DNA of 26,250 nucleotides from a virus: positions 1-26,250 of the IMG/VR virus record IMGVR_UViG_3300021957_003085, one strand, 5' to 3'. Numbering within the stretch: the stretch's first letter is position 1; every line of letters begins with the position of its first letter. Under the pieces are notes generated by a model. It was not told where the DNA came from and did no database searches. It was given only the letters and a program-made list of their open reading frames with translations. This document shows, piece by piece, positions 5,194 to 20,638 of the stretch. Made by a program: the position numbers and the translations under genes.

Positions 5194-7311
5194 ATGCAGG
5201 ACATAAAGGACTACCTCCTCAATAAAATAAGAGGAGACAACTTGGGTGTTAAACCCAGACGTAACTTACAACTCATGCGTATGATAGATACGGATGGTGT
5301 TGACATGCTAGACTTCTTAATAGAAGATATGGTATCCTATGCTAGAAAGGTAATTCAACGTTGCTTTAAACGCAATAAGGTAGAAGGTGAGTCAGCAATA
5401 ACTCAAGCCTCTATGGCAATAGGCAAATATATAGTGGAAGGTTGGGATAGCTCTAACGTTAACTTCAGAGATCATGTACGAGTAGGTGATCTAGTCATTG
5501 AAGGTTTCGTTATGTGTGGGTATCTAACTATCTCTGTAGGACATATGAAGAGTCGTAAGCCAGTGACCATACATGCTACTCCTAAGTGGGGTGAGATGGA
5601 AGTAATTGCAGGTAAAACAACTTGTATTAGTGCTACAGTGATTCCACCAATCAAAGGACTATTCCAAGACAACGGTAAGTCAGTTATAAAGACTTGGGAT
5701 AAATCTAAAGAACATAAGTTCTTAAACTATCTTAATAAACCATTTGTAAAAGCTATAAATAAACTACAAGCAACTAGATTTGTAGTAAACTCTGATGTGC
5801 ATAAGGCTATCCTAGAGAACTGGGATATGTTCATAAGTAATGAAGAGTATAGCGGAGAAGACAAGAATGAGAACGCTAAGCTCTATCAACGTCAAGCCTC
5901 AAAGAATAGAGAAGTCAAAGAGGTGATGGCTGCAGCTGATAAGTGGTTAGATAAAGAGTTTAGCTTTTATCTAGATGCAGACTATAGAGGTAGGCTATAC
6001 TATAGCGAACCGTTCTTTAACTTTCAAGGGGCAGATATAGCTCGTAGTCAGTTATTGTTTGCCAAGGGTAGACTCTTTGATGAGACTGCTAACTTCTGGC
6101 TTGCAGTACATACTGCTTGTTCATTTAATCAGTCATACAGTATAGATCAAATACCTAATTGGGCATCTTCAGACTATAAGAAGATACTCTTGGAAGAAGA
6201 GCTAGACACTATATCTGTAGATAAAATGACCCTAGAAGACAGAGCTAGATGGACTCAAGAGAACCTCGATGTGATAATAGAGATGGGTGAGATGAGAATC
6301 TTTGCAGAAGAAGCAGAGAAACGAATAGCATTCATGGCTTGTTGTATTGAGTGGTATAAGTACTCTCAGAGTAAAGATGAGTTCTATACTCAGCTACCTA
6401 TACCTATTGATGGTGCTAACAATGGTTGGCAACACCTAGGTGCTATGTCTAAGGACTCACTCACAGGTAGGCTAGTAGGTCTTGTACCAGTAGATATTCA
6501 GAATGACTTCTACGTACAGGTAGCTAAGAGACTATGTGAAAGGATGCCTGATTGGTTTGAAGAAAGACAAATGCCTATGAAGCATATCAGGAAGGGTATA
6601 GCTAAACGAGGGGCTATGACTAGGGCTTATAGTTGTGGTCAGAAGAAGATGTCAGAGTCTATGTACAGTGACTGCTATCAGTTTGGCTACACTAAAGATT
6701 ACGATATCAACACATGGGATTGTGATGAGCTTAGTAGTCAGGTGATCAGAGCTATACAAGAGGTATGCCCAGGACCATTAGACACCATGAGATACCTACA
6801 GAGGTTAGCTGATAAAGAGATATCTAATTGGCTAGCTACATACGGTACTGATAGAGGTCGTGGTATACAATGGGAATCTGAGTCAGGCTTTCCAGTAATA
6901 TACGAATGTTATCGTACTAGACCTGCTAAAGTAGACTGCTACGGATTCAATACACCAGACGGTGAGCTAAGGTTCAAGCATGTGATACGAGAGAAGACAG
7001 ATATACCAGATAGACGAGGGTTTATGTGTGGTATCAGTCCTAACTTTGTTCATAGCTCTGATGCAGCTCATATGGCTCTTGTAGTAGCCGATTGGGATGG
7101 TGAGTTTGGTGCAGTACACGACTCATTTAGTGCTCATGCGAGTAAGATAGAAGAGCTTATGATAGATGCACGAGACAAGTTCGTTAAAATATACGACAAA
7201 GAAAACTTCTATGACTCAATTCCATTTGGAAGAGGCTATGAGGGTGAGCAACCTACAATAGGTGCTTTGAATGTAAACGGAGTAATCGAATCAGATTACT
7301 TCTTCTGTTAA
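5194..7311 (+). CDS. T7-like single-subunit DNA-dependent RNA polymerase, short N-terminus
   Basis: A 705-residue single-subunit RNA polymerase for middle and late phage transcription. Motifs in order: DYRGR (Asp263-Arg267), motif A PIDGANNGWQH (catalytic Asp406), motif B KRGAMTRAYS (Lys471, Met475, Tyr479), PNFVHSSD (616-623), motif C VHDSF (His642, catalytic Asp643) and the C-terminal foot ESDYFFC, matching ESDFAFA of T7. All catalytic residues are present. T7 RNA polymerase has 883 residues and its DxxGR lies near 421-425, so about 155 residues are missing from the N-terminal domain, where T7 has its AT-rich recognition loop and intercalating hairpin. The Gly after the motif B Tyr is Ser480. 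The ribosome binding site is only a purine run (AGAGAGAAA). It has its own sigma70 promoter and lies last but one in the plus-strand module, unlike T7 where gene 1 is early. Confidence 0.96.
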   Translation: MQDIKDYLLNKIRGDNLGVKPRRNLQLMRMIDTDGVDMLDFLIEDMVSYARKVIQRCFKRNKVEGESAITQASMAIGKYIVEGWDSSNVNFRDHVRVGDLVIEGFVMCGYLTISVGHMKSRKPVTIHATPKWGEMEVIAGKTTCISATVIPPIKGLFQDNGKSVIKTWDKSKEHKFLNYLNKPFVKAINKLQATRFVVNSDVHKAILENWDMFISNEEYSGEDKNENAKLYQRQASKNREVKEVMAAADKWLDKEFSFYLDADYRGRLYYSEPFFNFQGADIARSQLLFAKGRLFDETANFWLAVHTACSFNQSYSIDQIPNWASSDYKKILLEEELDTISVDKMTLEDRARWTQENLDVIIEMGEMRIFAEEAEKRIAFMACCIEWYKYSQSKDEFYTQLPIPIDGANNGWQHLGAMSKDSLTGRLVGLVPVDIQNDFYVQVAKRLCERMPDWFEERQMPMKHIRKGIAKRGAMTRAYSCGQKKMSESMYSDCYQFGYTKDYDINTWDCDELSSQVIRAIQEVCPGPLDTMRYLQRLADKEISNWLATYGTDRGRGIQWESESGFPVIYECYRTRPAKVDCYGFNTPDGELRFKHVIREKTDIPDRRGFMCGISPNFVHSSDAAHMALVVADWDGEFGAVHDSFSAHASKIEELMIDARDKFVKIYDKENFYDSIPFGRGYEGEQPTIGALNVNGVIESDYFFC

Positions 7312-7323
7312 TAGGAGAATATA

Positions 7324-7575
7324 ATGGAAAATAAAAATTGGTTAGCCCAAAAAGGAAATAACTTTAATGATTTAGAATTTGCAGAAACGCTAGGTGTATC
7401 TACTGATTTAGTAGGCAAAGAAGGTTTTAATAGAGCAATGCTAGATGTTGTTCATGCAAATAATATGAACGGTTATATTAAACAAGGCTTTGAAGAAAGT
7501 AAAGCAAGACAAATGGCTGATAAGCAAAGACATCTTGCGATGAAGGCGGCTAAAGATAATGGTCTTAAAATGTAA
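7324..7575 (+). CDS. Small protein of unknown function, last gene of the plus-strand module
   Basis: An 83-residue, mostly helical, charged protein (MENKNWLAQKGNNFNDLEF... ending AAKDNGLKM) with no recognised domain. The start follows TAGGAGAATATA, a good ribosome binding site 12 nt after the RNA polymerase stop. It should be co-transcribed with the RNA polymerase and ends 7 nt before the terminator hairpin. It may act with or against a polymerase, as small genes near T7 gene 1 do, but nothing in the sequence shows that. Confidence 0.75.
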   Translation: MENKNWLAQKGNNFNDLEFAETLGVSTDLVGKEGFNRAMLDVVHANNMNGYIKQGFEESKARQMADKQRHLAMKAAKDNGLKM

Positions 7576-7582
7576 AATAAAA

Positions 7583-7622
7583 ATACCCCACAAGGTTTCC
7601 GTAAGGATTCCCTGTGGGGTAT
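7583..7622. terminator. Bidirectional Rho-independent terminator between convergent modules
   Basis: ATACCCCACA (7583-7592) pairs perfectly with TGTGGGGTAT (7613-7622), with inner AGG/CCC-type pairing around a short loop. The plus-strand transcript continues into GTTTGTTT and the minus-strand transcript into TTTTATTTTA, so both directions have a U-rich tail. It sits in the 53-nt gap between the plus-strand stop (7575) and the minus-strand stop (7629) and should end both modules. Confidence 0.9.
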
Positions 7623-7628
7623 GTTTGT

Positions 7629-10600
7629 TTATGCGTATTGATCTACGTATTCATCTGTTATAAGTGCACTTAATCGCTTCCTTTCTGCATTAACTTCAGC
7701 TATCATTTTATTTAAATCATTTTCAATATTAAGTATTTCGATTGATTTATTAAATAATTCTAAGAATACTTCAGGAGTTACTTTAACAGAAGGATCTTCA
7801 CCCTTTACTGTAGTCATATTAACATTTGGATCTCCGCCTTCCGACTCTTTTACCATGGCTCTTAAGATATTTATCTGGTCGTAAGTTCCTTTAGGTATTT
7901 TACCTTCTTCCATGTCTCTTCTAATAATAGATCCACCAAAGAAAACAAACTTACCTAATTCTTTATACTTACCTGCTCTGCCAATATCCATAAGCTCATT
8001 TCTAGCTTTTGCTTTTGCTATGTCTTCTCGCATCTGCCTTTTCATTTTATTAAATCCATCTCTTTCGGATTCTAATAAGTTATACTTCTTATTAACATCA
8101 AGAAATACTCTATTTGCTACGCTTTTTAACTCAATAAAAGTATCTGAATCACCCATAAAAGCATCATAGACTTGCATAACTAAATTATCTGGATTATTAC
8201 CAATAACTTCTGTTATAGTACGTTGAGCTATTGTTGCATCTATATTTTGAGTAGCATTAACCGCAAATTGATTACGTAATTTACTACCAGATCCAGGATT
8301 AGAAAGAAATCCTCCTTTAACTTTTTTCTTTTTAGCTTCTGCTGCAGCACTAAAATCTCTTTTCATAAGGCTTATCTGTGCAGGTTTAGTACGCTGATCT
8401 GCTTCAGGTCCAAAGTCAAACATAATAGTATCTTCTAATGAATACTCAAAACCGCCTGACTGAACTTCAAATCCATTAGGACCAACTGTAGTTGCCATTC
8501 TCTCAGCAAAGTTAAATACTCTACCCATCCGTTTAGCTAATTTAGCGTGTGCTAAAGCTCCACCAAGACCGTTGTTAAGAGCTACCTCTAAATATTTAGT
8601 AAGATCAGCTACAGATTCTTCATAATCTAAATTAGCAAAGAAATCAGGGTTATCATCAATAAATTTTCTAGCTGATTCTTCATGAAACTGTGCATCTTGA
8701 CCATAAATAGATGTCATAATAGGTAATTTCATTAGTTCTTTTACTTTACCTTTAGCATCTCTAATCTTTTCAAAGATATCATCCCATGTTTTAGGTTCTT
8801 TAACAAGTTGCTCTTGCCCAAACATAAAATTAAATACATCATCTCTTATATCGCCTTCAAAGTCTTCAAGAGACTTAGTGCTAGGATTAGTTTCATATAA
8901 CACTCCGCCTTTCCTAAGTATATTCTCAACACCCATTTGATAAGCTTGTATAACAGCACCGTTAGAGTTACCATCTATTTCAGCCTTAACCCTAGTAAGT
9001 AATGTACCTCCAGAAGGCATTGCTTCATATCGAGCTAACTCATGAAGAGCATCCATTGTAAAATAAAAAGCATCTTTACCTTGTTCTTCGAATAACGCCT
9101 GTAATCCAGGACTTAACGATAACCCTGCAGAAGTTTGAGTATCATTACCATTTTCTGCTTTAGTTTTTAAGTCATTAAAATTACTTGCATTCGCTTCTGT
9201 ATAGGCTAATAGTTCATTTCCAAACTGAATATATTGATCTTTATTTTTTTCAAACTCTCTTAGTTGTGCTTCATTAGATATCTTATCAGCTCCAGGCACA
9301 ATCGCCCTTGCTAATATCTGTAAAAAACCTCTTTCGGTTTTACTATTAGAGCCTTTAACTACTTTAGATTGTTTAGCTCCATCGACTATAAATCTAGCTG
9401 TTTTATCTGCTTGATAATTAAGTTCGGTTTGAGTTATCATTAAGCGAGAAGAGTTATTAATTGCAGTAAAACCATAAAAGAAAGAACGACCTGATTGTAA
9501 TAACCCATCATTCATTTGAGATACACGCATAGCTCTGTGACTACCTTGTATTCTCATTGCTTCTTTCGCTGCAATAGCTGCAAAGTCTTCTCCTCCTAAA
9601 CTCTCTGGAGTAAAAGAAGGATCAACTGCTGCTCTTTCTTTGTATTCTTTTTCTAAAGCAAGCCTTTTCTTTTTGAGATAAGCACTGTCTTGTTTAGTTG
9701 CTTTCTGTAAGAAAGGATTCATAGAGTTAAGTATACCACCTAACAACAATAGCTTATGCGGTGATGTAGTATGTGCAACTGTAGATGCTGCTTGTATAGC
9801 AACATCGATTTCCTTAGTGAGATAATTTTTTTGAACCTGAGTTGTTAATTGCTTTTGAGTATAAGCTCCTTCTCCCCTAAGTCTACCTTTATTAAGCGGA
9901 ACATTAGATACTGGTCGGTTATGTTTAGCCATACCCAACGCTTGCCTTGCAGCTGATCGAATAGCCGATAGCTTATTCTCACCTGTTCTAGTTGTTTCAT
10001 AAGTTCTTTTTTGCTTTCCATCTTCCATAGTTATAGTTCTGCCTTCAATCCAATCAAAAGCACTACTAGATGCTAATCCTTCTAAGATTACTTGCCCTAA
10101 TAAAGATCTTTCTCTTTCTGTAGTTCTATACTTATAACCAAATTCAGATGTTTCACCTGTAAATATTTCTGAAGGATCAGATCCTTGAGTAGGGTAAAGT
10201 AATCTTTCAAAAGTAGAACCAACTGCTTTACCCATATTAACTCTATCAAGAGCAGAATCATATTGTCTTTGACTAGATACTTTATCTGCTTCTTTGTCTT
10301 GTAATTGTAATCGATTACCTAATTCAAAGATAACAGCCATCATAGCAGTACTACCTGCTTCATCTCTAATATCTGATTGAGGATTAGAAGGGTCAACTAA
10401 TAAGTTTAACTTATCATACCCTTTTAATGCATAACTAAATTCACTACTATTATTCTTTAATACACTCATAGGATCTATTAATGAATCTGATATATCTTGA
10501 TCAGTTAAATTTACTTTTTCTCCAAAGAGAGAACCCTTACCAGAACCAAATTGAAAAGATTTAGAGCCTAAAGATAATGCAGCAGTCAAATTCATCATAC

Positions 10601-11144
10601 CATCATCTTCAGCAATCAGTCTTTTATTTGCATTATCTTCTAGCACTTCTCTTTCTACTTCGTTTCCAAATAGTTTAGCTACTTCTGAATTAAAATTAGG
10701 TCTATCTATAGCTTCTTTTGTTAAGGTACTATACAGTGCTTCTGATTTTTGTTTTGGACCTAATTGACCTATAGTCTCTCCATATAACCCTTGGGTTTTT
10801 GGATCAGCGACATTAGGTATATTAGATTTTTGAACTTCTCTAATACTTTCTTGACTAGGATCTATGTTAATTCTGCTCTGTAAGTCAGCAGGCTGGACAT
10901 TTTCTGGATTAGGACCAGTACCTATTGCTACTGGCTGATTTGCAACCTGAGTTTGAGGAGTATCTTCAACTCCTTTCATTCGCTCTACCATTTGATCGGT
11001 AGGGAATTCAATATTAAATTGCTTATCTGCAATAGTGGCTGTTTGTTGATTAGCTACGTTAGCTTTTTCTCTAGCCGCTTCTTCTGTTTGAATATTACCT
11101 TGTTCTAATTCATCTAAAAAATTAAAACCACTTCTCTTTCCCAT
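7629..11144 (-). CDS. Candidate virion-associated single-subunit RNA polymerase (N4 vRNAP-like), in internal core protein position
   Basis: A 1171-residue protein, last gene of the structural operon. Single-subunit RNA polymerase motifs can be read in order: FFYGFTAINNSSRLM (555-569, Arg567 at the DxxGR arginine) followed by NYQADKTAR (576-584), like NPQ in T7; motif A EIDGNSNG (Asp724; DGxxxG as in T7 DGSCSG); motif B KLPIMTSIYG (Lys806, Met810, Tyr814, Gly815; same Lys-Met-Tyr spacing as T7 631, 635, 639); NATQNIDA (963-970), like NFVHSQDG of T7; and motif C QVYDAF (Asp994). Asn963 to Asp994 is 31 residues, equal to T7 Asn781 to Asp812. Differences: Gly to Ser in DxxGR, T7 His784 to Gln966 and His811 to Tyr993. 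The N-terminal 150 residues are Gln/Asn-rich and the C-terminus is helical. The start follows AAAGGAGA. Its place after the SNase/gp16-like gene argues for ejection with the DNA. Homology is inferred from motifs; activity is untested. Confidence 0.7.
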   Translation of the reverse strand: MGKRSGFNFLDELEQGNIQTEEAAREKANVANQQTATIADKQFNIEFPTDQMVERMKGVEDTPQTQVANQPVAIGTGPNPENVQPADLQSRINIDPSQESIREVQKSNIPNVADPKTQGLYGETIGQLGPKQKSEALYSTLTKEAIDRPNFNSEVAKLFGNEVEREVLEDNANKRLIAEDDGMMNLTAALSLGSKSFQFGSGKGSLFGEKVNLTDQDISDSLIDPMSVLKNNSSEFSYALKGYDKLNLLVDPSNPQSDIRDEAGSTAMMAVIFELGNRLQLQDKEADKVSSQRQYDSALDRVNMGKAVGSTFERLLYPTQGSDPSEIFTGETSEFGYKYRTTERERSLLGQVILEGLASSSAFDWIEGRTITMEDGKQKRTYETTRTGENKLSAIRSAARQALGMAKHNRPVSNVPLNKGRLRGEGAYTQKQLTTQVQKNYLTKEIDVAIQAASTVAHTTSPHKLLLLGGILNSMNPFLQKATKQDSAYLKKKRLALEKEYKERAAVDPSFTPESLGGEDFAAIAAKEAMRIQGSHRAMRVSQMNDGLLQSGRSFFYGFTAINNSSRLMITQTELNYQADKTARFIVDGAKQSKVVKGSNSKTERGFLQILARAIVPGADKISNEAQLREFEKNKDQYIQFGNELLAYTEANASNFNDLKTKAENGNDTQTSAGLSLSPGLQALFEEQGKDAFYFTMDALHELARYEAMPSGGTLLTRVKAEIDGNSNGAVIQAYQMGVENILRKGGVLYETNPSTKSLEDFEGDIRDDVFNFMFGQEQLVKEPKTWDDIFEKIRDAKGKVKELMKLPIMTSIYGQDAQFHEESARKFIDDNPDFFANLDYEESVADLTKYLEVALNNGLGGALAHAKLAKRMGRVFNFAERMATTVGPNGFEVQSGGFEYSLEDTIMFDFGPEADQRTKPAQISLMKRDFSAAAEAKKKKVKGGFLSNPGSGSKLRNQFAVNATQNIDATIAQRTITEVIGNNPDNLVMQVYDAFMGDSDTFIELKSVANRVFLDVNKKYNLLESERDGFNKMKRQMREDIAKAKARNELMDIGRAGKYKELGKFVFFGGSIIRRDMEEGKIPKGTYDQINILRAMVKESEGGDPNVNMTTVKGEDPSVKVTPEVFLELFNKSIEILNIENDLNKMIAEVNAERKRLSALITDEYVDQYA

Positions 11145-11146
11145 AC

Positions 11147-14100
11147 TTAATCTCCTTTATCTGCATACGGATATGGATCTGGATATTTACCATGTACCAA
11201 ATCTTTTATTATATTTCTAATAGGAGTTATTGGACCGACTCCAGGTATTAATTTAGTTGCATGACCAGCTGCTCTTTCAGTTTCTCCTTTACCAAGAGCA
11301 CCTATAGCCTTCATAGCAGTTCCAATAGACCTTACTGTAGGTGATCCTCCTACGGTTTCTCCAAACAATCTATCTGTTATACTTTCGTCTCTGCCTTGAT
11401 ATAAAGGCAAAGCACCCTGAAGTAGACGTTCTCCAGTACCTAATAAACCAGAAGATTGTAATGCCCTTTGTAATAATTGTGCATCACTAAGATACGGAGT
11501 ACTTCCTCCAAATTTGATATAGTCTTTAAGCCATTGAGAAGCACCTGCTACTGCCATCATAGTTACTACAAGTGCAAATGTATTGTACTTCATTCTAGGA
11601 CTACCATTTCTAATATAGTCATTCCATAGTTTAGGTACAATGTTAGCTGTAAATGTAGATATAAAACCATTAAACTGTACAAATAACTGATAATGAGGAT
11701 CTTGGAAAAACATAGGTCTATTATATGCTTGAGGATTCTGCACTCTGTCATTAACAAAATACCATGTGGCAGTATCCATCTGTCTTTCAATCTCTTTATA
11801 ATCAGCATTGTTATCATCTAACATCATCTTATCAAAGATAACAGGATCATCATAACGTCTAAATATCTGTATAAATAATTCTACATCGATACCTAAGTTA
11901 TTTAATTGCGTATATATCTCTAGCTGATCTTGATTCATTTCAACATTATCTGGTTTAGCAGAGAGTATTTTTATTCTATCACCAACAAAGCCAGCTACTG
12001 CAGAAGCAGCAATCGCTCTTTGTAATTGTGTAACTCCAGCTATACCTGAATATTTAAAGAATTGTTTTTGCCACCATGCTTTACTAATATCAGTCTCACC
12101 TAAACCAAGACGAGTAGCTATAGTTGCATCATCGTTAAATAGACCTGAATCAGTTAATCGTGTCCAAGATTCCCTATCTATATTGGCACGAGGTACATGT
12201 CCTAACTTTTTATTTAACTTCATTTGAGCAATAGATTTAAATATCTCAACTCCTTCTTTAACCCCAGCAAGAATACCTCTTTGAACGTCTTTTCCTCCTC
12301 TACCTTGATACATTATCATAACAAATTCAGGAAAAGAACTTATAGCAGATAGAGGTAAACCAACCATTGCAGCGTAGAAGGCTGCTGTTTGTTGAAAGGC
12401 AGCTAACTTTCTATTTTTAATAGTATTATAGTTACCTGTGCCTGCATCAATAATATTTTTTGCATGATAAGCTATCTCAGCTACTTCTTCTCTGCTTAAC
12501 CCATCTTCTTTTTCCATTTTATTTAAAAGGTAATCTAAATTTTTACCGCCACGACCAAAGTACTTAGTATAAGAGGCATACTTAGCTGTTTGATTAGCAC
12601 TGTTAATCATATTTTGTAAAATATTATCATTAGCAAACTTATCGAATCCAGGCTTAGAAGAAAATTCTTTGTTTTCATCTTTAGAATATCCAGGAATATA
12701 TTCAACACCTTCTACTACTGAAAAATCAGTAGCATTTTCGTTATTAGATATTTTCATATACAAATCATCAAGTTCTTGACCTTTATATTTAGTATTTTTT
12801 CGCATCCAATCATACCACTCATCACGATATTGTCTAACCTTTTGCCAATCCCATGACTTGTTATTAAGATAATAGTCTTTTTGTTCGACCAAATCTTTTC
12901 TATTACGACCTTCATTTTTTTGTGTCATATTTTTTAAATTATAAATACCATCTTGGAATTCTACCAGCTCTTCAATAGTTTGTTCTATGGCTTGTATATC
13001 AGATTGAGACATATTAGCAGTGTCACCTGCTTTATATCTTCTTATCATGTCAGAAACCTTTTGAGAATTAGTAATACTATCTCTCATACCAAATCTTTCA
13101 AATATACGTTTAGGATTTATTATTTCTAATAATTCAGCTCGTGTTCTTGCTTCTGCTGCTTGTACATCTCTTCCTGAATATACTTTACCTGCAACAGATC
13201 CTAAAAGACCTGCTAATATTCTAGCATGTTTAGACCTTCTTTGAATATCTGCACCTAACGCAGTGAGTGATGAGGCACGATATAGCTCTCCAGCATACTT
13301 AAGTGGGTTCTTTACTATATTCATAAACTTTCTAGGTATAGCACCGCTTTGTGCTCGATCTTTAGTAACGCTAGAGTTTTTATTTAACTTAGCATCTCTG
13401 GTTTCTTTTTGTAAGTTTAATATTTGAGCATCAATAGAACCTTGATCACCGTCTCGTTTAAGAATCTCTTGAGACATCATATCTAGCTTACCTAGCTTAC
13501 CTATCCTTCCTGTCTCAAGACCTTTTTGAGTCGCATAACGGTCTCCAGCCTCTATTACACCGCCACCTATTCCAAAGCCAGCACCGAGAGTACCTCCAGC
13601 AACTGCCGAAGCAGCTAATAGGTTTGTGAATTGATTAGCATTAAAATGCTGATCTAAGCCTCCTTCCGACATACTTTTAGATGAGAGGTAACCGAGTCCT
13701 TCTTGTGCTGCTTCTGTTATTCCTTCTGCAAATCCGCCTCGACCAGCTCTCTTTAATAAGTCCTTAGCAATTTGACTATTATTAATATTATCAGAAGCGA
13801 AGTTACCCATACCTTCAATGGTCTCTTTAATTACCTTTTTACTTTCAGTAGCTAATAATTCTTCTGCCTTATCTCTGGTCATGCCTTTACCTAAAGCACT
13901 GCTCCCAGTTACTAATGCTTGTATTACTTTCTCCCTACCAGTTTTAGTAAGAAATTCAGAAGGCTTCATGATTGCCTTCATACCTAGGCGGTCTAATAAA
14001 GCCATAGCAGTACCAGCCATTATAGACCCTGTAGCTTCTGCACGACCCTTAGGTCCGATAATATCATTCCACACTTGACCAGCATAAGTAGCTGCAGTAG

Positions 14101-15097
14101 ATCCGTAAGCTATAGGTACGGAAGCACCTAAAGTTAACGGAGCGAGTAATGTACCAGCAGTTAGAGTAACTAGATAAGGTGCTGACATGGCTAAGTTATT
14201 AGTCATGAACCCCCATCCATCCATAATGCTATCTATATCTCGATAATCTAAATTTTTTAGGGCAGGCATTCTTGCAAGATCTTCTTTAGCCATTCTTACT
14301 CGGTCAGTTCCGTAGTCTTTGATAGTATCACTTCCTAACTGAACACCCATTAGCTCTGCAAATCCACCTAAGCCAGTAGCCATTCCTTTCCAACCTGTAT
14401 TCCAAGCCTCTGTCATTTGGTTATAAGCAACACCTTCTTTTGTTCTATCTGATTGTCTAAAATCTATACCGCTAAAAGGAATACTACGAGGATCATAGTT
14501 TCCTGATTGTACTATATTAATAGCTTTTCTATGATCTGCTTCATTGTTTAAATCTAAGCCCATCTGATCAGCAACAACTTCTTTTACTGATTGTGCATAC
14601 TCATTTTCATTTAAGGCACTACCTTTAAAAGAAATAGGTTGTTGTTTAACCTCTCCCAGTTCATCATTAACAATATCTTCATATAGCCTTTTTCCGTTTA
14701 ATTCTTTTGATAAACGACCAGCATCAACTGCTTGAATACCTTCTTCATCAGTAAATAGGTTCATATCAATAGCACCAGATCGATATAATGTATTAGTTAA
14801 ATCATCTCCTTGTGCATTTTTTATTCTTATTCTCTTACGACCAAAAGAATCAGTCTTATCTAAATCTTCAATAATATTAAAACCACCTGCTGCAATTATT
14901 CTTTTAACTGCAGAGGTAGTTTCATCTCCACCTACTTGACCTTTTTTAAACTTTAATCCTTTTTCTTCATCACTAAATATTTTAGAAGTTTCAGGAGCGT
15001 TATATCCCTGAATACGATAGCTTTGAACGCCATCACTAATAGTATCTCCATCAGTAAGATTGTATTTTTTTCCGTCAATGCCTTCAATATCAGCCAT
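11147..15097 (-). CDS. Large internal virion (DNA ejection) protein, gp16-like, with N-terminal SNase-like domain
   Basis: A 1316-residue protein. Residues about 8-112 match the staphylococcal nuclease (thermonuclease) fold: DGDT (16-19, Asp18 for SNase Asp21), YRIQGYNAPET (Arg28 for Arg35, Asn33 for Asp40, Glu36 for Glu43) and DSFGRKRIRI (Arg87 for Arg87). The Asn-Ala-Pro-Glu variant also occurs in other family members. Next come long helical regions with hydrophobic stretches (about 301-345, 355-368, 490-515) that could cross a membrane. The C-terminal 150 residues (SQWLKDYIKFGG, GVGPITPI, ending PYPYADKGD) resemble the end of large T7 gp16-type core proteins. T7 gp16 carries a transglycosylase at its N-terminus; here a nuclease-like domain holds that place and the transglycosylase is in the neighbouring protein. 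The start follows AAGGAGG and a T7-like promoter candidate lies just upstream. Ejection role inferred from position and composition. Confidence 0.75.
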   Translation of the reverse strand: MADIEGIDGKKYNLTDGDTISDGVQSYRIQGYNAPETSKIFSDEEKGLKFKKGQVGGDETTSAVKRIIAAGGFNIIEDLDKTDSFGRKRIRIKNAQGDDLTNTLYRSGAIDMNLFTDEEGIQAVDAGRLSKELNGKRLYEDIVNDELGEVKQQPISFKGSALNENEYAQSVKEVVADQMGLDLNNEADHRKAINIVQSGNYDPRSIPFSGIDFRQSDRTKEGVAYNQMTEAWNTGWKGMATGLGGFAELMGVQLGSDTIKDYGTDRVRMAKEDLARMPALKNLDYRDIDSIMDGWGFMTNNLAMSAPYLVTLTAGTLLAPLTLGASVPIAYGSTAATYAGQVWNDIIGPKGRAEATGSIMAGTAMALLDRLGMKAIMKPSEFLTKTGREKVIQALVTGSSALGKGMTRDKAEELLATESKKVIKETIEGMGNFASDNINNSQIAKDLLKRAGRGGFAEGITEAAQEGLGYLSSKSMSEGGLDQHFNANQFTNLLAASAVAGGTLGAGFGIGGGVIEAGDRYATQKGLETGRIGKLGKLDMMSQEILKRDGDQGSIDAQILNLQKETRDAKLNKNSSVTKDRAQSGAIPRKFMNIVKNPLKYAGELYRASSLTALGADIQRRSKHARILAGLLGSVAGKVYSGRDVQAAEARTRAELLEIINPKRIFERFGMRDSITNSQKVSDMIRRYKAGDTANMSQSDIQAIEQTIEELVEFQDGIYNLKNMTQKNEGRNRKDLVEQKDYYLNNKSWDWQKVRQYRDEWYDWMRKNTKYKGQELDDLYMKISNNENATDFSVVEGVEYIPGYSKDENKEFSSKPGFDKFANDNILQNMINSANQTAKYASYTKYFGRGGKNLDYLLNKMEKEDGLSREEVAEIAYHAKNIIDAGTGNYNTIKNRKLAAFQQTAAFYAAMVGLPLSAISSFPEFVMIMYQGRGGKDVQRGILAGVKEGVEIFKSIAQMKLNKKLGHVPRANIDRESWTRLTDSGLFNDDATIATRLGLGETDISKAWWQKQFFKYSGIAGVTQLQRAIAASAVAGFVGDRIKILSAKPDNVEMNQDQLEIYTQLNNLGIDVELFIQIFRRYDDPVIFDKMMLDDNNADYKEIERQMDTATWYFVNDRVQNPQAYNRPMFFQDPHYQLFVQFNGFISTFTANIVPKLWNDYIRNGSPRMKYNTFALVVTMMAVAGASQWLKDYIKFGGSTPYLSDAQLLQRALQSSGLLGTGERLLQGALPLYQGRDESITDRLFGETVGGSPTVRSIGTAMKAIGALGKGETERAAGHATKLIPGVGPITPIRNIIKDLVHGKYPDPYPYADKGD

Positions 15098-15122: not shown

Positions 15123-15178
15123 ATCCCTAGGGATTCTCCCCTATAAGGGTGTGTTAAGAATTCCTAGGGATTTTTTTT
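15123..15178. terminator. Long-loop hairpin with T8 tail enclosing a promoter candidate
   Basis: ATCCCTAGG (15123-15131) pairs perfectly with CCTAGGGAT (15163-15171) around a 31-nt loop. On the plus strand it runs into eight T; on the minus strand into ACTTTATTTTA, a weaker U-tract. The left arm is part of a 12-nt palindrome (ATCCCTAGGGAT, 15123-15134), and CCTAGGGATT also occurs as a direct repeat at 15126-15135 and 15163-15172. It lies in the only sizeable gap of the minus-strand module (15098-15176). It may terminate or process the transcript of the genes before it and block plus-strand antisense transcription. Confidence 0.65.
15136..15158 (-). promoter_or_regulatory. Candidate T7-class phage promoter for the last two ejection-protein genes
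   Basis: Read on the minus strand, ACACCCTTATAGGGGAGA resembles the T7 promoter core CACTATAGGGAGA: TATA directly before a G-run then AGA, with an AC and C upstream at matching positions. The likely start is the G at 15141, 44 nt before the ATG of the 1316-residue protein. It lies inside the loop of the hairpin, so RNA starting here carries only one stem arm. I saw only this one clear copy in the window, so the consensus of this phage polymerase is not established. Confidence 0.55.
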
Positions 15179-17828
15179 ATTTAATTAGCTCGTTTATCCT
15201 TTCAGATGGCGTTCTATACGCCCATAAAGTAAAACCAGACCAACCATTATTATTGTCATCTTTCTTTTTCTCAGCAGCATTTGCTATTGCTTGGTCTCTT
15301 TCATCTTGAGGTATTTGACCCCAAGCATCATATGCCGCTTTCCATTCTGCTTTATACTCATCATTATAACCCTTGTCTTTAGGACTTTTTATATCCATAT
15401 CTTTCTTAATTTGTTTATCAAGTAAAGCTAAGTTATCTGGAGAAGTTCCTGTTATTGCTCCAGGACCAATACCAGTTAACGGAGTAAACATTTCTAATTG
15501 AACGTATTGTTCTAAACGATAAGGCTTTATATTATCACTATCTTTTTTATTAAGAGCTTTAGCTTCATAAAAGTTTACCATTGCTCTTTCAATAGCCATT
15601 TTTAATTGAGGAGCTTCGTTTATAGATCTACCACTACTTCTTAATATCTTTCGATAAATAGAGTTAGCTTCACTACCCATAGGTCTATACGCAGAATAAG
15701 AAGAATCGGTAGATTCAATACCACTCATTGTAGATTTATGTATTGCTTCACCGTAATTATCAAATTGTTTAGTAACTGCAGCATCACCATGAGCACTATC
15801 ATCCCACTCTTCAATATATAGCTGGCTAGTCGGAACATAATCTTTGCCTATTCTAGCATACTCTATTCCATCTTTATCTTTAAACTTAGGTACTTTACCA
15901 AGACCTCTAAGATAACCGCTTCCTGAAGATGTTTTCATACTTATCTTTTTAGTTGCAGGAATAAGATCATTCATGTCTGCTGTCTTAGCATATATTAATA
16001 AAGATTCTGGAGTATATTTTTCTGCAAAGTCTTTATCAAGAACTGCTTTCTTTGCATACGCTTGATTAGCATCAACACGCTTCATGTAATTTTTCATAGA
16101 ATAGTTTAAAGAGCCACCATGGTTATACCCCATAGCACGAGAGCCAGCATATATAAGAGCCATCCTTGCGAGTTCTTCACCATCAAACATACTTGAAAAG
16201 GCATTTTTAAAATACTCCATTGATTTATCTAGTATAACACCGCCATATTCTTTACCTTTATTTATAAGGTATTGACTAAAGTCACCCTCATACTCTCCTG
16301 TAAGGTTTTTCTTAGCCCAAGCTTCATCTGCCTCGTCAAGGCTTAGCTTACCCTCACCATAATCTGCAGTATTAGTATCTTGAATTATCTTTTTAACTAC
16401 TTCATTTTTATTTTTCTTTTCGTTAACTATATCTTCTGAAGATTTTTTCTCATATTTTTTCTTTTCTTTTTCTTTATCAGAAGTAAATTTCTCTACTGAA
16501 TCAGTTCTTTTTTCAACTATTTTTAAAATCTTTTTTTGAGCTTTAATAGCATCTTTTAATTTCTTTTCATTTGCAGCATTAGGTTCATTATCAAATTTTT
16601 CTTTATAATATTCTACATTTTTGTCTGCATCAACAAGAAATTGTTTAGCTTTTTTTAAATCTTTTGCTCTACTAACTTCAGTAGCTTTACCTTTAATAAT
16701 ATCATATATCTCTCCAGGAGCATCTGTTATAGTATTATAGATATCGGTAAGTGTGGTGTCGGTATTAAATGGATTAGCTTCCTTACCTCCAAATGCTTTA
16801 TCAAAATCAAATTCACCACCACTTAGTTTATTCATAATCTGATTACCAAGACCTGTTTCACTAGTGTCTGTTGAGATATCTTCAGGAGGTATTCCTTTTA
16901 TATAATCAGGAACTCCTTTGTTTGAAGTATCAGTAGTACTAGCTTGAGCGGACATGAATCCAGGCTCTATAGGTCTGCCATCAAGGGTGATTATCTTTGT
17001 TGTAGGTATTGCATCGGCTATTTTGCCAGCATATGCTTGACCACGAGGACCAAGTTCTTCTTCACCAGACTTAGCTTTAAGAACATTACCAACACCTGAA
17101 TGATAAGCAGTTAGTACCTGATCTTTAGTAAACTCTGGGTGTGCTTTCATAATACCTTGTAGATATTGTTTAGCAAAGCCTCTTGACTTTACTTCATTAA
17201 ATCTATCAGCACCACTTATAGCCTCTACACCATACCCAGGTTTTAATGCTGTAGCTTTCATTATCTGATATGGTCCAGCTGCACCTACTTCAGATACTGC
17301 ATTTACATCACCACCAGACTCTACTTCTCTCATAGCATCAAGTACGCTAGGCATCATATCTTCGGTAATAACTCCGCCATCCTGTTTATAAGCTGGCATT
17401 AAGGCTGCTTGTGCTTCTCCTTGAGACATATTAAGGTTATTCATAAGTGCTTGTATGATTTGCGAATCAGATAATCCCATTCCTTTTAATGTACTTATTT
17501 CTGAATTAACTGTTGATTGATTATAGTCATTGCCATAGTAATCTATCTGACCTCCCTCTGAATTGTAGCTAGGTATTGGTCCACCTTGTTTCTTTTGAAT
17601 AGCACGACCTTTGTCATTGAGTTTATCAAGCATAGGTTGTACTCCAGGAAGTCTCGATGCTTCTGCATTCACTACGTTTTCTCCAGGAGTTAACATAGCA
17701 GGCACAGTATCAGTTCCTTTTGGTTTAAATATCTCTGGGTTAGGAATCTCTTGCATAGAAGGAACATCGAATTCGTAGGAAAACATATTTCCATACCTAT
17801 CTTTTTCTGTGTACTTTTTAATGTTCAT
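15177..17828 (-). CDS. Internal virion protein with lytic transglycosylase (SLT) domain
   Basis: An 883-residue structural protein that likely opens a hole in peptidoglycan during DNA ejection. Residues about 155-275 form a lysozyme-like SLT domain: AMREVESGG (catalytic Glu170), VGAAGPYQIM (181-190), TAYHSGVGNVL (240-250). Near the N-terminus GTDTVPAMLTPGE (38-50) is a short motif recurring in phage tape-measure and structural proteins. Residues about 380-480 are a Lys/Glu-rich coiled coil (KKLKDAIKAQKKILKIVEKR). GG-hydrophobic repeats (QGGPIP, QDGGVI, NHGGSL) are scattered through it. The start overlaps the preceding stop as TAATG, with GGAGG inside the upstream gene. It is separated from the next gene by the hairpin-promoter gap. 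In T7 the transglycosylase is part of gp16; here it is a different polypeptide. Domain secure, precise virion role inferred. Confidence 0.85.
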   Translation of the reverse strand: MNIKKYTEKDRYGNMFSYEFDVPSMQEIPNPEIFKPKGTDTVPAMLTPGENVVNAEASRLPGVQPMLDKLNDKGRAIQKKQGGPIPSYNSEGGQIDYYGNDYNQSTVNSEISTLKGMGLSDSQIIQALMNNLNMSQGEAQAALMPAYKQDGGVITEDMMPSVLDAMREVESGGDVNAVSEVGAAGPYQIMKATALKPGYGVEAISGADRFNEVKSRGFAKQYLQGIMKAHPEFTKDQVLTAYHSGVGNVLKAKSGEEELGPRGQAYAGKIADAIPTTKIITLDGRPIEPGFMSAQASTTDTSNKGVPDYIKGIPPEDISTDTSETGLGNQIMNKLSGGEFDFDKAFGGKEANPFNTDTTLTDIYNTITDAPGEIYDIIKGKATEVSRAKDLKKAKQFLVDADKNVEYYKEKFDNEPNAANEKKLKDAIKAQKKILKIVEKRTDSVEKFTSDKEKEKKKYEKKSSEDIVNEKKNKNEVVKKIIQDTNTADYGEGKLSLDEADEAWAKKNLTGEYEGDFSQYLINKGKEYGGVILDKSMEYFKNAFSSMFDGEELARMALIYAGSRAMGYNHGGSLNYSMKNYMKRVDANQAYAKKAVLDKDFAEKYTPESLLIYAKTADMNDLIPATKKISMKTSSGSGYLRGLGKVPKFKDKDGIEYARIGKDYVPTSQLYIEEWDDSAHGDAAVTKQFDNYGEAIHKSTMSGIESTDSSYSAYRPMGSEANSIYRKILRSSGRSINEAPQLKMAIERAMVNFYEAKALNKKDSDNIKPYRLEQYVQLEMFTPLTGIGPGAITGTSPDNLALLDKQIKKDMDIKSPKDKGYNDEYKAEWKAAYDAWGQIPQDERDQAIANAAEKKKDDNNNGWSGFTLWAYRTPSERINELIK

Positions 17829-18868
17829 TACTTACCTCCGCCTCCACCACTATTAGAAGATGATGCATCGTCTGCATAACTTGTTCCTGTTCCTTGCCCT
17901 CGACCTGCAGTTGCAGTAGAGCTCGTTGATCCACTATAAGAATCAAAACTATCATCTGAATTGTTGTCAGTCATATCACCGCTATAGACACCACTATCAA
18001 CGGAGGGTGCTGCTGCTGACTCATTACCAGTAGAGAATGTACCTGTAGAGCTAAACTGTGAGCCTTGAGTTGCCGCACCAGTGTCACTATAACTTAAACC
18101 TTGTATAGCATCTGTAGTTGCACTGTTAGCACCTAAAGAACTTTCAGCTATTCCCATATCAAGACCTATCTTTTTAGCAATAGTGTTTTTATCAGCTTGA
18201 GTCATACCATCTGCATCTTTACCGAGAGGACTATTTTCTAAAGCAAATTCATAAGACTGTGCTTGATTGGAATTAGCTCTATTAGGATCATTTACACTAT
18301 AATCAAAAGCATTCTTAGGATCACCAAGAATATTACCAAGAGGATCATCCATAATTTGATTTGCAAATGCTCCCATCGTAGCGTACTCAGGATTCGCATA
18401 ACCTGTTATAGGATCTATTGATCTTCCTTGCTGGTCAAACGTACCACCAGTAAGACTACTAACAGTTCCAGGAGTTCCATAACCACTTGTCGGTACTGCT
18501 GGTCCAAATAAGCCATAGCCTGGAATCATATTCATTGGACTTGGTCCATACGTCTTTTGTAAACCAAAGTCTTGTCCTATATTTGCATTATTGATATCTT
18601 TATTTGCCTGATCAATAGACATTTGTGTACTTGCCATAGCACTCCCATTATCACTATCATTTCCCATAGTCATAGACGTATTATCTGCATATGGAGTAGG
18701 AGCTACTGTTGGAGCTTCGTATGCTGGGATTGTATAGTTAACTGGGGGTATATTTGCTGGACTCATAGAAGGTGCAAAATTCGAACCGCTATATCTAAAG
18801 CCATACTTCGGTTGTATCGAAGGGGCTGGTTGATAGGCTGTTGTGCCTGCACTAGATTTAAATGCCAT
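17828..18868 (-). CDS. Low-complexity structural protein, unknown function
   Basis: A 346-residue protein rich in Pro, Ser, Gly, Ala, Tyr and Asn, with a disordered N-terminus (proline-rich APSIQPKYGFRYSG, then PTVAPTPYAD) and a Ser/Gly/Thr-rich C-terminus ending in five Gly and Lys. No domain, signal peptide or membrane segment is evident. The start follows TAGGAGAAAAAC and its TAA overlaps the next ATG by one base. Its place between the gp14-like proteins and the transglycosylase protein suggests a virion component. The C-terminal Gly codons also supply the GGAGG ribosome binding site for the next gene. Confidence 0.75.
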   Translation of the reverse strand: MAFKSSAGTTAYQPAPSIQPKYGFRYSGSNFAPSMSPANIPPVNYTIPAYEAPTVAPTPYADNTSMTMGNDSDNGSAMASTQMSIDQANKDINNANIGQDFGLQKTYGPSPMNMIPGYGLFGPAVPTSGYGTPGTVSSLTGGTFDQQGRSIDPITGYANPEYATMGAFANQIMDDPLGNILGDPKNAFDYSVNDPNRANSNQAQSYEFALENSPLGKDADGMTQADKNTIAKKIGLDMGIAESSLGANSATTDAIQGLSYSDTGAATQGSQFSSTGTFSTGNESAAAPSVDSGVYSGDMTDNNSDDSFDSYSGSTSSTATAGRGQGTGTSYADDASSSNSGGGGGK

Positions 18869-18877
18869 GTTTTTCTC

Positions 18878-19528
18878 CTATGTATTAGGTGCGTTATCTG
18901 GTCTTATCATGTCATAAGGACTATATGTTTTATCAGCATTGAGAGGGTCTGCTCCTAGAGGAGGTCTCATCATTGGCATAGCCTGTTGAGCTGCTTCAGT
19001 CATGCTTTCAGCCATTATCTCGTTGTATAAATCATCAGGATTTATTCTCATCATTGGCATACTTGTCGGTGGCATTGTTTGAATAGGCTCTGGTTGATTG
19101 TTCATCAGTGCCATTGCTTGTTCTTTTGACATTGTACCTTGTGCATTATACTGCGGACTCAAAGGTCCAACCATTCCACCTTCATTAAACAATCCAAGTG
19201 CCTTACCAGCCAATAGACCAGCACCTACATAAGGTATTGCTGTAGCCATAGCCGCACCAGCACCTGCTCCGCCAGCACCTAGTATAGCACCGCCTTCAAC
19301 ACCACTGGCTACAGTAGGTGCAAGTGCACTGCTGATGCCTGAAGTGATTGCTCCTTGACCAGCATCTAAAACACCTGTCATCGCTCTTTGCTTAGCCATA
19401 TCCATCATTTGTCCACCCATCCCCTTTTGTTGTTGAGGAGCTTGAGGTGTTGCGAGGGGTGCTCTTTGAGTTTGCATCATTTGATTTCTTTTTTGTTCGT
19501 CTTCTGGGCTTAATGCTAGATCAATCAT
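18878..19528 (-). CDS. Putative internal virion protein with Gly/Ala-rich hydrophobic core
   Basis: A 216-residue protein with a Gln/Met-rich N-terminus (RNQMMQTQRAPLATPQAPQQ), a long Gly/Ala-rich hydrophobic stretch (about residues 55-113: ITSGISSALAPTV, ILGAGGAGAGAAMATAIPYV, GAGLLAGKALGLF) and a Met/Pro-rich C-terminus. The hydrophobic region could insert into a membrane or pack in the virion core. The motif NEGGMVG after it resembles GG motifs in the 883-residue protein. The ATG overlaps the preceding stop as ATGA. Small membrane-active ejection proteins such as T7 gp14 are the best analogy, but no homology is claimed. Confidence 0.7.
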   Translation of the reverse strand: MIDLALSPEDEQKRNQMMQTQRAPLATPQAPQQQKGMGGQMMDMAKQRAMTGVLDAGQGAITSGISSALAPTVASGVEGGAILGAGGAGAGAAMATAIPYVGAGLLAGKALGLFNEGGMVGPLSPQYNAQGTMSKEQAMALMNNQPEPIQTMPPTSMPMMRINPDDLYNEIMAESMTEAAQQAMPMMRPPLGADPLNADKTYSPYDMIRPDNAPNT

Positions 19529-20163
19529 TTGCCACCTCCACTACTTGTTTGTGTTTGAGATTGAGGAGCACCTGATAGTAATCCTGCAAGTCTTGTTTGC
19601 TCTGTATAAGGAGCATCAATAAGTTGTTGTTGAAACTTTTGTTTAGTCGTTCCAGCTTGCCCTAATGACTGTATACCTTGTTGAATATCTGCTTGTCTTT
19701 GTCTTTGCTGTTCTAAAGATTGGTTAGCTAACGCTCCTGACATAGCTGCTTGTGTTCTTGCAGAACCAAGAGCACCACCACTAGAGGCTTGACCCATAAG
19801 GCTACCCATGGTGTCTTTCAAAGCTCTGTCTTGAGCAGCTCTTGTATCATAAGCTCCACGACCTCTGATAGCATCTTCAGCGGAGGCTGATTGATAAGCC
19901 AAAGCTTGTCTTTGCTCAGGACTAAGATCAGCTACTGTAGCTTCTACACCTCTACCTCTGCGTTCTTTGTATCCAGCAAGAGCATCTGCCATAGCTTCTC
20001 TATAATAAGGTATAAATTCTTTAGTCATACCTGATTCAGTAACAGTAGTGCCTCCACCACCTTTCATACATATATTAGTATTTATTCTATTAGCAAGAGA
20101 CTTAGGTAATCCTTCAGTATCTCTACGCATATCATATAGACCTAAGTTAGGTTCATAGTTCAT
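19525..20163 (-). CDS. Putative internal virion / DNA ejection protein
   Basis: A 212-residue Gln/Ala/Gly-rich helical protein. The C-terminal half (NQSLEQQRQRQADIQQGIQS, then LIDAPYTEQTRLAGLLSGAPQ) has the look of internal virion proteins of marine T7-like phages, where helical Gln-rich stretches end in a DAPY-like segment. A run of four Gly (KGGGGTT) is near residue 35. The start lies inside the end of the GNAT-like gene (11-nt overlap) with AGGAGAATAAAG before it. The end, SSGGGK, contains the GGAGG for the next gene. No enzymatic motif. Assignment rests on composition and position. Confidence 0.65.
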   Translation of the reverse strand: MNYEPNLGLYDMRRDTEGLPKSLANRINTNICMKGGGGTTVTESGMTKEFIPYYREAMADALAGYKERRGRGVEATVADLSPEQRQALAYQSASAEDAIRGRGAYDTRAAQDRALKDTMGSLMGQASSGGALGSARTQAAMSGALANQSLEQQRQRQADIQQGIQSLGQAGTTKQKFQQQLIDAPYTEQTRLAGLLSGAPQSQTQTSSGGGK

Positions 20164-20638
20164 CTTTATTCTCCTGTATTACACCTCTTACCGAGACATG
20201 TAGTTCTGCATTATATCTTTTCTGTAAGAAGCGACCATACTTATATGCTTCTTCTTCACTACGAACAGAATCTGCTCGCCAATGTTTTCCACCATTTTTT
20301 TTTATATGCTCTATCATATGATCAAATAGACGATACACAACGTAAGCATTGTTGTAGTTATGATCGACAATACAATCTTTGACATCCATAACCCATTGTT
20401 TATTATAGTAATTACTAAAAGTAGAAGCAGAAAGAAATCCTCTTAGCTTGTTAGTTTTATCATAGTCACCTATGACAAGAGCATGAGGACTCCCTTCCTT
20501 TTGTTTTTTAACTAATGATAAAAAGTATTCTATCCATATAGCTTCATTCTTTTCATAACCATAAAATTGACCCTGAGTAGACTCATTCATAAGACTTATT
20601 GCTTCAAATACATTATTATCTTCTATAAGCTTTATCAT
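20153..20638 (-). CDS. GNAT-fold protein in T7 gp13 position
   Basis: A 161-residue protein with the outline of a GNAT acetyltransferase: an N-terminal helical part, ALVIGDYDKTNKLRGFLSAS (53-72), whose LRGFLSAS suggests the central strand, the strand VMDVKDCIVD, the long helix VVYRLFDHMIEHIKKNGGKHW and a C-terminal segment (RFLQKRYNAELHVSVRGVI) like the end of the fold. The canonical acetyl-CoA loop (Q/RxxGxG/A) is not clear, so activity is doubtful. T7 gp13, an internal virion or assembly protein, is also GNAT-like and lies just after the nozzle gene, as here. It overlaps the neighbours at both ends (4 nt before, 11 nt after). A structural or assembly role is more likely than catalysis; this is inference. 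Confidence 0.65.
   Translation of the reverse strand: MIKLIEDNNVFEAISLMNESTQGQFYGYEKNEAIWIEYFLSLVKKQKEGSPHALVIGDYDKTNKLRGFLSASTFSNYYNKQWVMDVKDCIVDHNYNNAYVVYRLFDHMIEHIKKNGGKHWRADSVRSEEEAYKYGRFLQKRYNAELHVSVRGVIQENKDEL

Follow-up and report, generated by a model that had tools for sequence, protein, structure and literature searches.

A divergent staphylococcal-nuclease domain at the head of a probable gp16-like ejection protein in a marine podovirus related to CRP-7

Results

Gene order around the locus

The window (the whole stretch of DNA analyzed) is a 26,250-base virus record, IMG/VR IMGVR_UViG_3300021957_003085. Its plus strand encodes a partial family A DNA polymerase, a 5'-3' exonuclease, a SegE-type GIY-YIG protein, a primase-helicase, a dCMP deaminase, and a single-subunit RNA polymerase, and its minus strand carries the late genes together with part of a ribonucleotide reductase. 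The nearest named relative is the podovirus Roseobacter phage CRP-7, which has a similar gene order and belongs to a group reported to be widespread in the ocean (PMC6918029). Two plus-strand genes merit brief comment. The GIY-YIG protein (1856-2557, 233 aa; PF19835, E 2.2e-23) lies among the replication genes and matches a PHROG labelled NAD synthetase, a label also given to CRP-7 gp22 that looks like a misannotation. The RNA polymerase (5194-7311) is only 705 aa long, with its C-terminal part matching; that of CRP-7 is closest (34% identity), other phages being at about 25%.

The protein of interest, P0001, is one of three large late proteins encoded in succession on the minus strand (Table 1). 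It reads MADIEGIDGKKYNLTDGDTISDGVQSYRIQGYNAPETSKI...DKTDSFGRKRIRI, and its start codon is sound: AAGGAGGT, a strong ribosome-binding site, stands 4 bases before the ATG at 15097. Just upstream of this site, between the genes for P0003 and P0001, a stable RNA hairpin is predicted on the minus strand (15123-15171; -24.1 kcal/mol, z -2.3), followed by a U-rich stretch; it is perhaps a processing site or a partial terminator. P0002 has no family match in Pfam or PHROG. Four small late proteins on the minus strand (17828-20638; 346, 216, 212, and 161 aa), which gave no Pfam or PHROG match where scanned, may include gp13/gp14-like internal proteins.

Table 1. Features of the P0001 locus, with positions in the window and the basis of each assignment
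Feature	Position	Strand	Basis
P0001, putative gp16-like ejection protein, 1316 aa, with N-terminal SNase domain	11147..15097	-	ORF, RBS, phrog_6958, structure matches of residues 590-1316
P0003, preceding late protein, 883 aa, gp15-position; muralytic SLT domain at about 17055-17357	15177..17828	-	PF01464 E 4.9e-11, residues 158-258
P0002, following large late protein, 1171 aa, in the place of CRP-7 gp33	7629..11144	-	Gene order common to CRP-7 and IMG/VR relatives
SNase domain, residues 7-131 of P0001	14705..15079	-	hhalign with shuffle controls; AlphaFold2 model, Foldseek, VIA-align
D16-G-D18 (DGDT motif), matching SNase D19/D21	15044..15052	-	Both Asp invariant, 16/16
R28, matching SNase Arg35	15014..15016	-	Invariant; hhalign pairing
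N33, at the position of SNase Asp40 (Ca2+ ligand)	14999..15001	-	
E36, matching SNase Glu43 (general base position)	14990..14992	-	Invariant
D83-S-F-G-R87, matching SNase D83-K-Y-G-R87	14837..14851	-	D83, R87 invariant; G86 in 15/16
Putative gp16-like core, about residues 641-1200	11498..13177	-	VIA-align to T7 gp16 (residues 641-887), weak hhalign, phrog_6958

P0001 begins with a divergent staphylococcal-nuclease domain

A sequence-only reading of this DNA had proposed a staphylococcal-nuclease-like (SNase-like) domain at 14762-15076 on the minus strand, i.e., residues 8-112 of the ORF at 11147-15097. Profile comparison bears this out and agrees on the location, although the domain ends slightly further on, at about residue 131. 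When the 16-member family of P0001 was aligned by hhalign with nine annotated SNases, the score was 68.3 (96.98%, 99 columns), compared with a mean of 12.6 (SD 2.3) and a maximum of 21.5 for 200 column-shuffled controls. None of these nine was reached through the P0001 family; they belong to a set of 12 annotated SNases from phages and plasmids, three of which had come via weak similarity to that family, so that the comparison was redone without them (with all 12 the score is 75.7, 97.3%). A PDB search with the profile of the 12 recovers S. aureus nuclease at E about 1e-36. All three clades of the family match the SNases when taken separately, the window sequence scores 33.6 on its own, and five of nine SNase-invariant columns coincide with the 11 columns invariant in the family (hypergeometric P 0.0006, with columns treated as independent). 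By profile comparison and structure prediction, residues 7-131 of P0001 are thus an SNase domain.

Its divergence is evident from single-sequence searches. The window protein has no Pfam match and no PHROG or PDB sequence match for the SNase domain, and the domain searched by sequence against the PDB, Pfam, and phage records gave chance matches only. One relative matches PF00565 with E 0.0014 in a single-genome search, at 13.5 bits and hence below the curated cut-off of 21. The Pfam cut-off is a detection threshold, and as it is not reached we use the label "divergent" SNase. The domain of another relative, L004, searched against plasmids, found thermonuclease genes in six of nine matches.

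Viral-contig searches enlarged the window clade by ten members, added several to the CRP-7 clade, and, via the N-terminal domain, recovered two distant members; their phage contigs encode the same SNase-fused protein at 5908-10155 (L022) and 5947-10062 (L023). The resulting 16-row alignment of the SNase-fused family covers three phage lineages sharing about 22-29% identity. Searching viral contigs with this alignment and with L023 added no further lineage, and a search of cellular genome contigs found no relatives. Nei-Gojobori dN/dS for residues 10-130 lies at 0.04-0.41 in eight pairs, about the level of the rest of the protein or somewhat above it; by this codon-level measure purifying selection acts on the domain, which is not decaying freely.

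An AlphaFold2 model of the domain built from the 16 sequences (mean pLDDT 66) has its strands and helices in SNase order, with an OB-fold followed by C-terminal helices, as the sequence-only reading requires. Every one of the 50 PDB matches that Foldseek lists is S. nuclease (best E 5.5e-4, probability 1.00), and VIA-align superposes the model on SNase with Z 8.5 over 105 residues at 3.7 A. In BFVD, the first-ranked match has 1368 aa, as does CRP-7 gp34; ranked third is an uncultured-phage protein of 1342 aa that already bears an SNase-like name. The loop holding N33 and E36 is modelled at pLDDT <50, so the predicted active-site geometry is tentative.

The catalytic residues are conserved

In the hhalign comparison, D18, R28, N33, E36, and R87 of P0001 pair with D21, R35, D40, E43, and R87 of SNase, respectively. 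D16, D18, R28, N33, A34, E36, and the FGR motif ending at R87 all lie at the positions given in the sequence-only reading, which had proposed conservation of Asp18, Arg28, Glu36, and Arg87 as a check; these four, the equivalents of catalytic D21, R35, E43, and R87, are invariant in 16/16 sequences. The full set of invariant columns over the three lineages is D16, D18, R28, A34, E36, K39, G72, D83, R87, N94, and G97. In L022, DPYNR replaces D.YGR, making it the only member without Gly before the catalytic Arg.

The Asp40 position is occupied by Asn in the window clade and in L022/L023, and by Asp in the CRP-7 clade. The substitutions of Asn for Asp40 and Ala for Thr41 had been noted earlier and are indeed present, but as signs of a DNA-binding remnant they carry little weight: among the 12 annotated SNases, Asn is found at the Asp40 position in 3/12 and Ala at the next position in two. 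Thr41 of SNase binds Ca2+ via its backbone, so Ala in its place ought to do no harm, and Asn retains an oxygen that can serve as a ligand. Being ordinary SNase variation, these residues do not show a loss of activity, and Asn33 or Ala34 as the mark of a dead enzyme was dropped. A literature search on Asp40 mutants found none. Judged from the conserved residues, the predicted fold, and the analogy with gp16 developed below, the domain is likely a Ca2+-dependent nuclease that would be delivered into the host envelope.

The rest of P0001 has a possible gp16-like core

Residues 827-1200 of P0001 match phrog_6958, a virion structural protein. A structural model of residues 590-1316 is poor (pLDDT 53), and a Foldseek search with it returned nothing significant. 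When 180 chains were realigned to this model with VIA-align, the best was the PhiM1 pre-infection ejectosome protein (Z 9.5, with an rmsd of 25 A, so the match is piecewise), followed by T7 gp16 (7eyb_I; Z 7.0, 209 residues) and then by a chain at Z 4.8. An hhalign comparison with the T7 gp16 family is collinear (821-1227 with 801-1196) and scores 37.8 against a shuffle maximum of 27.7, at a probability of only 14.5%; a claim of core homology from this comparison alone was rejected as too weak (probability 5-15%). We base the link to gp16 on the VIA-align ranking and on gene order: P0001 follows the muralytic 883-aa protein as gp16 follows gp15, yet the 1171-aa protein comes next, so P0001 is not the last large late gene. 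Taking these matches together with gene order, we consider it probable that P0001 is a gp16-type protein, which is in line with the earlier suggestion of a core protein whose counterpart in T7 has a transglycosylase at this place; the location of the SLT domain on the preceding gene speaks for that suggestion as well.

The core also occurs in more distant relatives, among them Vibrio phages such as KIT05 and Pseudomonas phages such as KPP25 and BroderSalsa. The proteins of KIT05 and BroderSalsa (927 and 1039 aa) keep the core while their N-terminus is without SNase motifs; therefore the SNase domain behaves as a module.

A Pfam scan of P0001 found neither SLT nor another N-terminal peptidoglycan transglycosylase, the SLT domain sitting instead on the preceding protein. 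Comparison of L003, L008, L010, L022, and L040 showed that the type of cell-wall enzyme on the gp15-position protein varies between relatives: the window and L008 have SLT there, L003 has phage lysozyme, CRP-7 and L040 share a pesticin-type lysozyme, and L022 gives a transglycosylase-family match, while the SNase gene that follows stays constant. That the muralytic type changes while the SNase stays argues that the SNase serves a need of these phages. A hydrolase is not universal in gp16-like proteins, and swaps between gp15- and gp16-like genes have been described, with no nuclease among them (PMC8954989).

Discussion

A possible periplasmic nuclease carried by a probable ejection protein

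In T7, the periplasmic tunnel bears wings made of gp16 residues 1-156, and the C-terminal part of the protein reaches the cytoplasm (PMC8954989). Because this N-terminus is periplasmic, the SNase domain of P0001 would, by position, be periplasmic after ejection, off the path of the DNA and in contact with external Ca2+. We therefore favor, at a probability of roughly 0.5, a reading in which P0001, from a marine podovirus related to CRP-7, serves as a T7 gp16-like ejection protein with an SNase in its enzyme slot and acts as a Ca2+-dependent periplasmic nuclease outside the tunnel. The staphylococcal-nuclease domain would replace the lytic transglycosylase in the N-terminal slot; P0001 would be packed in the head and leave before the DNA, its core helping to build a channel into the cell; and the SNase domain, by analogy with the N-terminal part of gp16, would come to lie on the outer side of the periplasmic tunnel, where it could cut nucleic acid encountered outside the conduit in a Ca2+-dependent manner. 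Stray DNA, such as that of competing phages, seems to us a likelier target than the host chromosome.

The sequence-only reading had left open how the phage DNA would be spared. If the gp16 topology holds, a periplasmic domain offers one answer (PMC8954989), since the phage genome would be shielded by the tunnel in which it runs while other nucleic acid is exposed. The cytoplasm, where virions are assembled, is low in free Ca2+, and this too may protect the phage DNA. Against this reading, one Ca2+ ligand has given way to Asn in the window clade, and a useful substrate for a periplasmic nuclease is not obvious. The most specific form of the proposal, that CRP-7-like podoviruses deliver an active, Ca2+-switched nuclease outside the trans-periplasmic tunnel, thereby clearing rival-phage or transforming DNA with their own DNA spared, is put forward tentatively, from residue conservation, models, and analogy.

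It is possible, though rather unlikely, that the SNase fold has been kept only for nucleic-acid binding or structure, gripping packaged DNA near the core or bracing the ejectosome, with no cutting. Most members have Asn at the Asp40 place, and the Pro of the NAPE motif is replaced by Lys or Ala in L006 and L030, indicating some drift; in PhiM1, moreover, density attributed to DNA runs along grooves made by enzyme-like ejectosome domains (PMC11440229). A pure binder, however, need not keep exactly D18, R28, E36, and R87, and all four are invariant over three lineages at about 22-29% identity. The net charge of residues 1-135 is -5, which disfavors a general grip on DNA.

We regard as unlikely a nuclease that becomes active in the cytoplasm as soon as the phage has entered and that degrades host DNA or RNA or disables a nucleic-acid-based defence, in the manner proposed for nuclease domains of MuF and polyvalent proteins. 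Virion-delivered nuclease domains have been predicted in those proteins (PMC5576092, PMC5512222), and gp16 refolds on ejection, its C-terminal part being the one that reaches the cytoplasm (PMC8954989). Against this, it is the N-terminus of gp16 that forms the periplasmic end in T7, and no immunity-type partner was found within the window. SNases depend on Ca2+, of which the cytoplasm has little, and incoming phage DNA would be exposed there.

Finally, a chance or convergent likeness in a short set of motifs, the domain being something else, would suit a window protein without a Pfam, PHROG, or PDB sequence match, but is very improbable given the scores against shuffles, with independent SNases and clade by clade, the fold matches, the PF00565 match in one relative, and the mostly thermonuclease plasmid matches of another.

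Podovirus ejection proteins are known for swappable cell-wall enzymes. Were that slot to hold a conserved nuclease-fold domain, one of the earliest proteins to enter the cell could also act on nucleic acid, and the question arises of how the virion keeps a nuclease beside the phage genome. For gp34 of the isolated phage CRP-7, annotated as hypothetical, the domain also suggests a function that can be tested. If the periplasmic-nuclease reading is true, the nuclease would reach the host envelope before the genome does. Searching the literature for an SNase among ejection and internal virion proteins yielded no description; both parts are of known kinds, and their combination appears to be undescribed in the literature searched, one automatic annotation (the 1342-aa protein) aside.

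Comparison with known systems

With SNase/thermonuclease (PF00565) the P0001 domain shares the fold topology, the catalytic Asp, Arg, Glu, and Arg, and the DGDT, xAPE, and D.[YF]GR motifs; it differs in being fused to a large late virion-type protein, in having Asn at Asp40 in the window clade, and in falling below the Pfam cut-off. MuF toxins and polyvalent proteins are likewise virion proteins whose predicted nuclease or other enzyme domains would enter the host alongside the DNA (PMC5576092, PMC5512222), although their delivery scaffold is different, and the term SNase is absent from the main text of the polyvalent-protein paper among these two.

T7 gp16 (internal virion protein D, peptidoglycan transglycosylase; PDB 7eyb, 7k5c, 6yt5) is of almost the same length as P0001 (1318 vs 1316 aa), is encoded after the gp15-position gene, and has a core that the predicted one appears to resemble; the N-terminal enzyme of P0001, however, is an SNase by prediction and not a lytic transglycosylase, and the sequence similarity of the cores is marginal. 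The tetrameric ejection protein of PhiM1 (PDB 8vb2, PMC11440229), the best structural match of the core at Z 9.5, is an ejection protein with enzyme domains, but these cut peptidoglycan. BFVD entry A0A6J5NQ80 from an uncultured Caudovirales phage, a 1342-aa "Staphylococcal nuclease (SNase-like), OB-fold" protein, has a similar size and an SNase domain matching our model, although its SNase name is an automatic annotation only. CRP-7 gp34 (QBQ72827.1, "hypothetical protein") is the counterpart in an isolated phage and has the SNase domain; it differs from P0001 in its overall sequence (about 22% identity) and in having Asp at the Asp40 place, and the host strain of its phage is Rhodobacteraceae FZCC0042.
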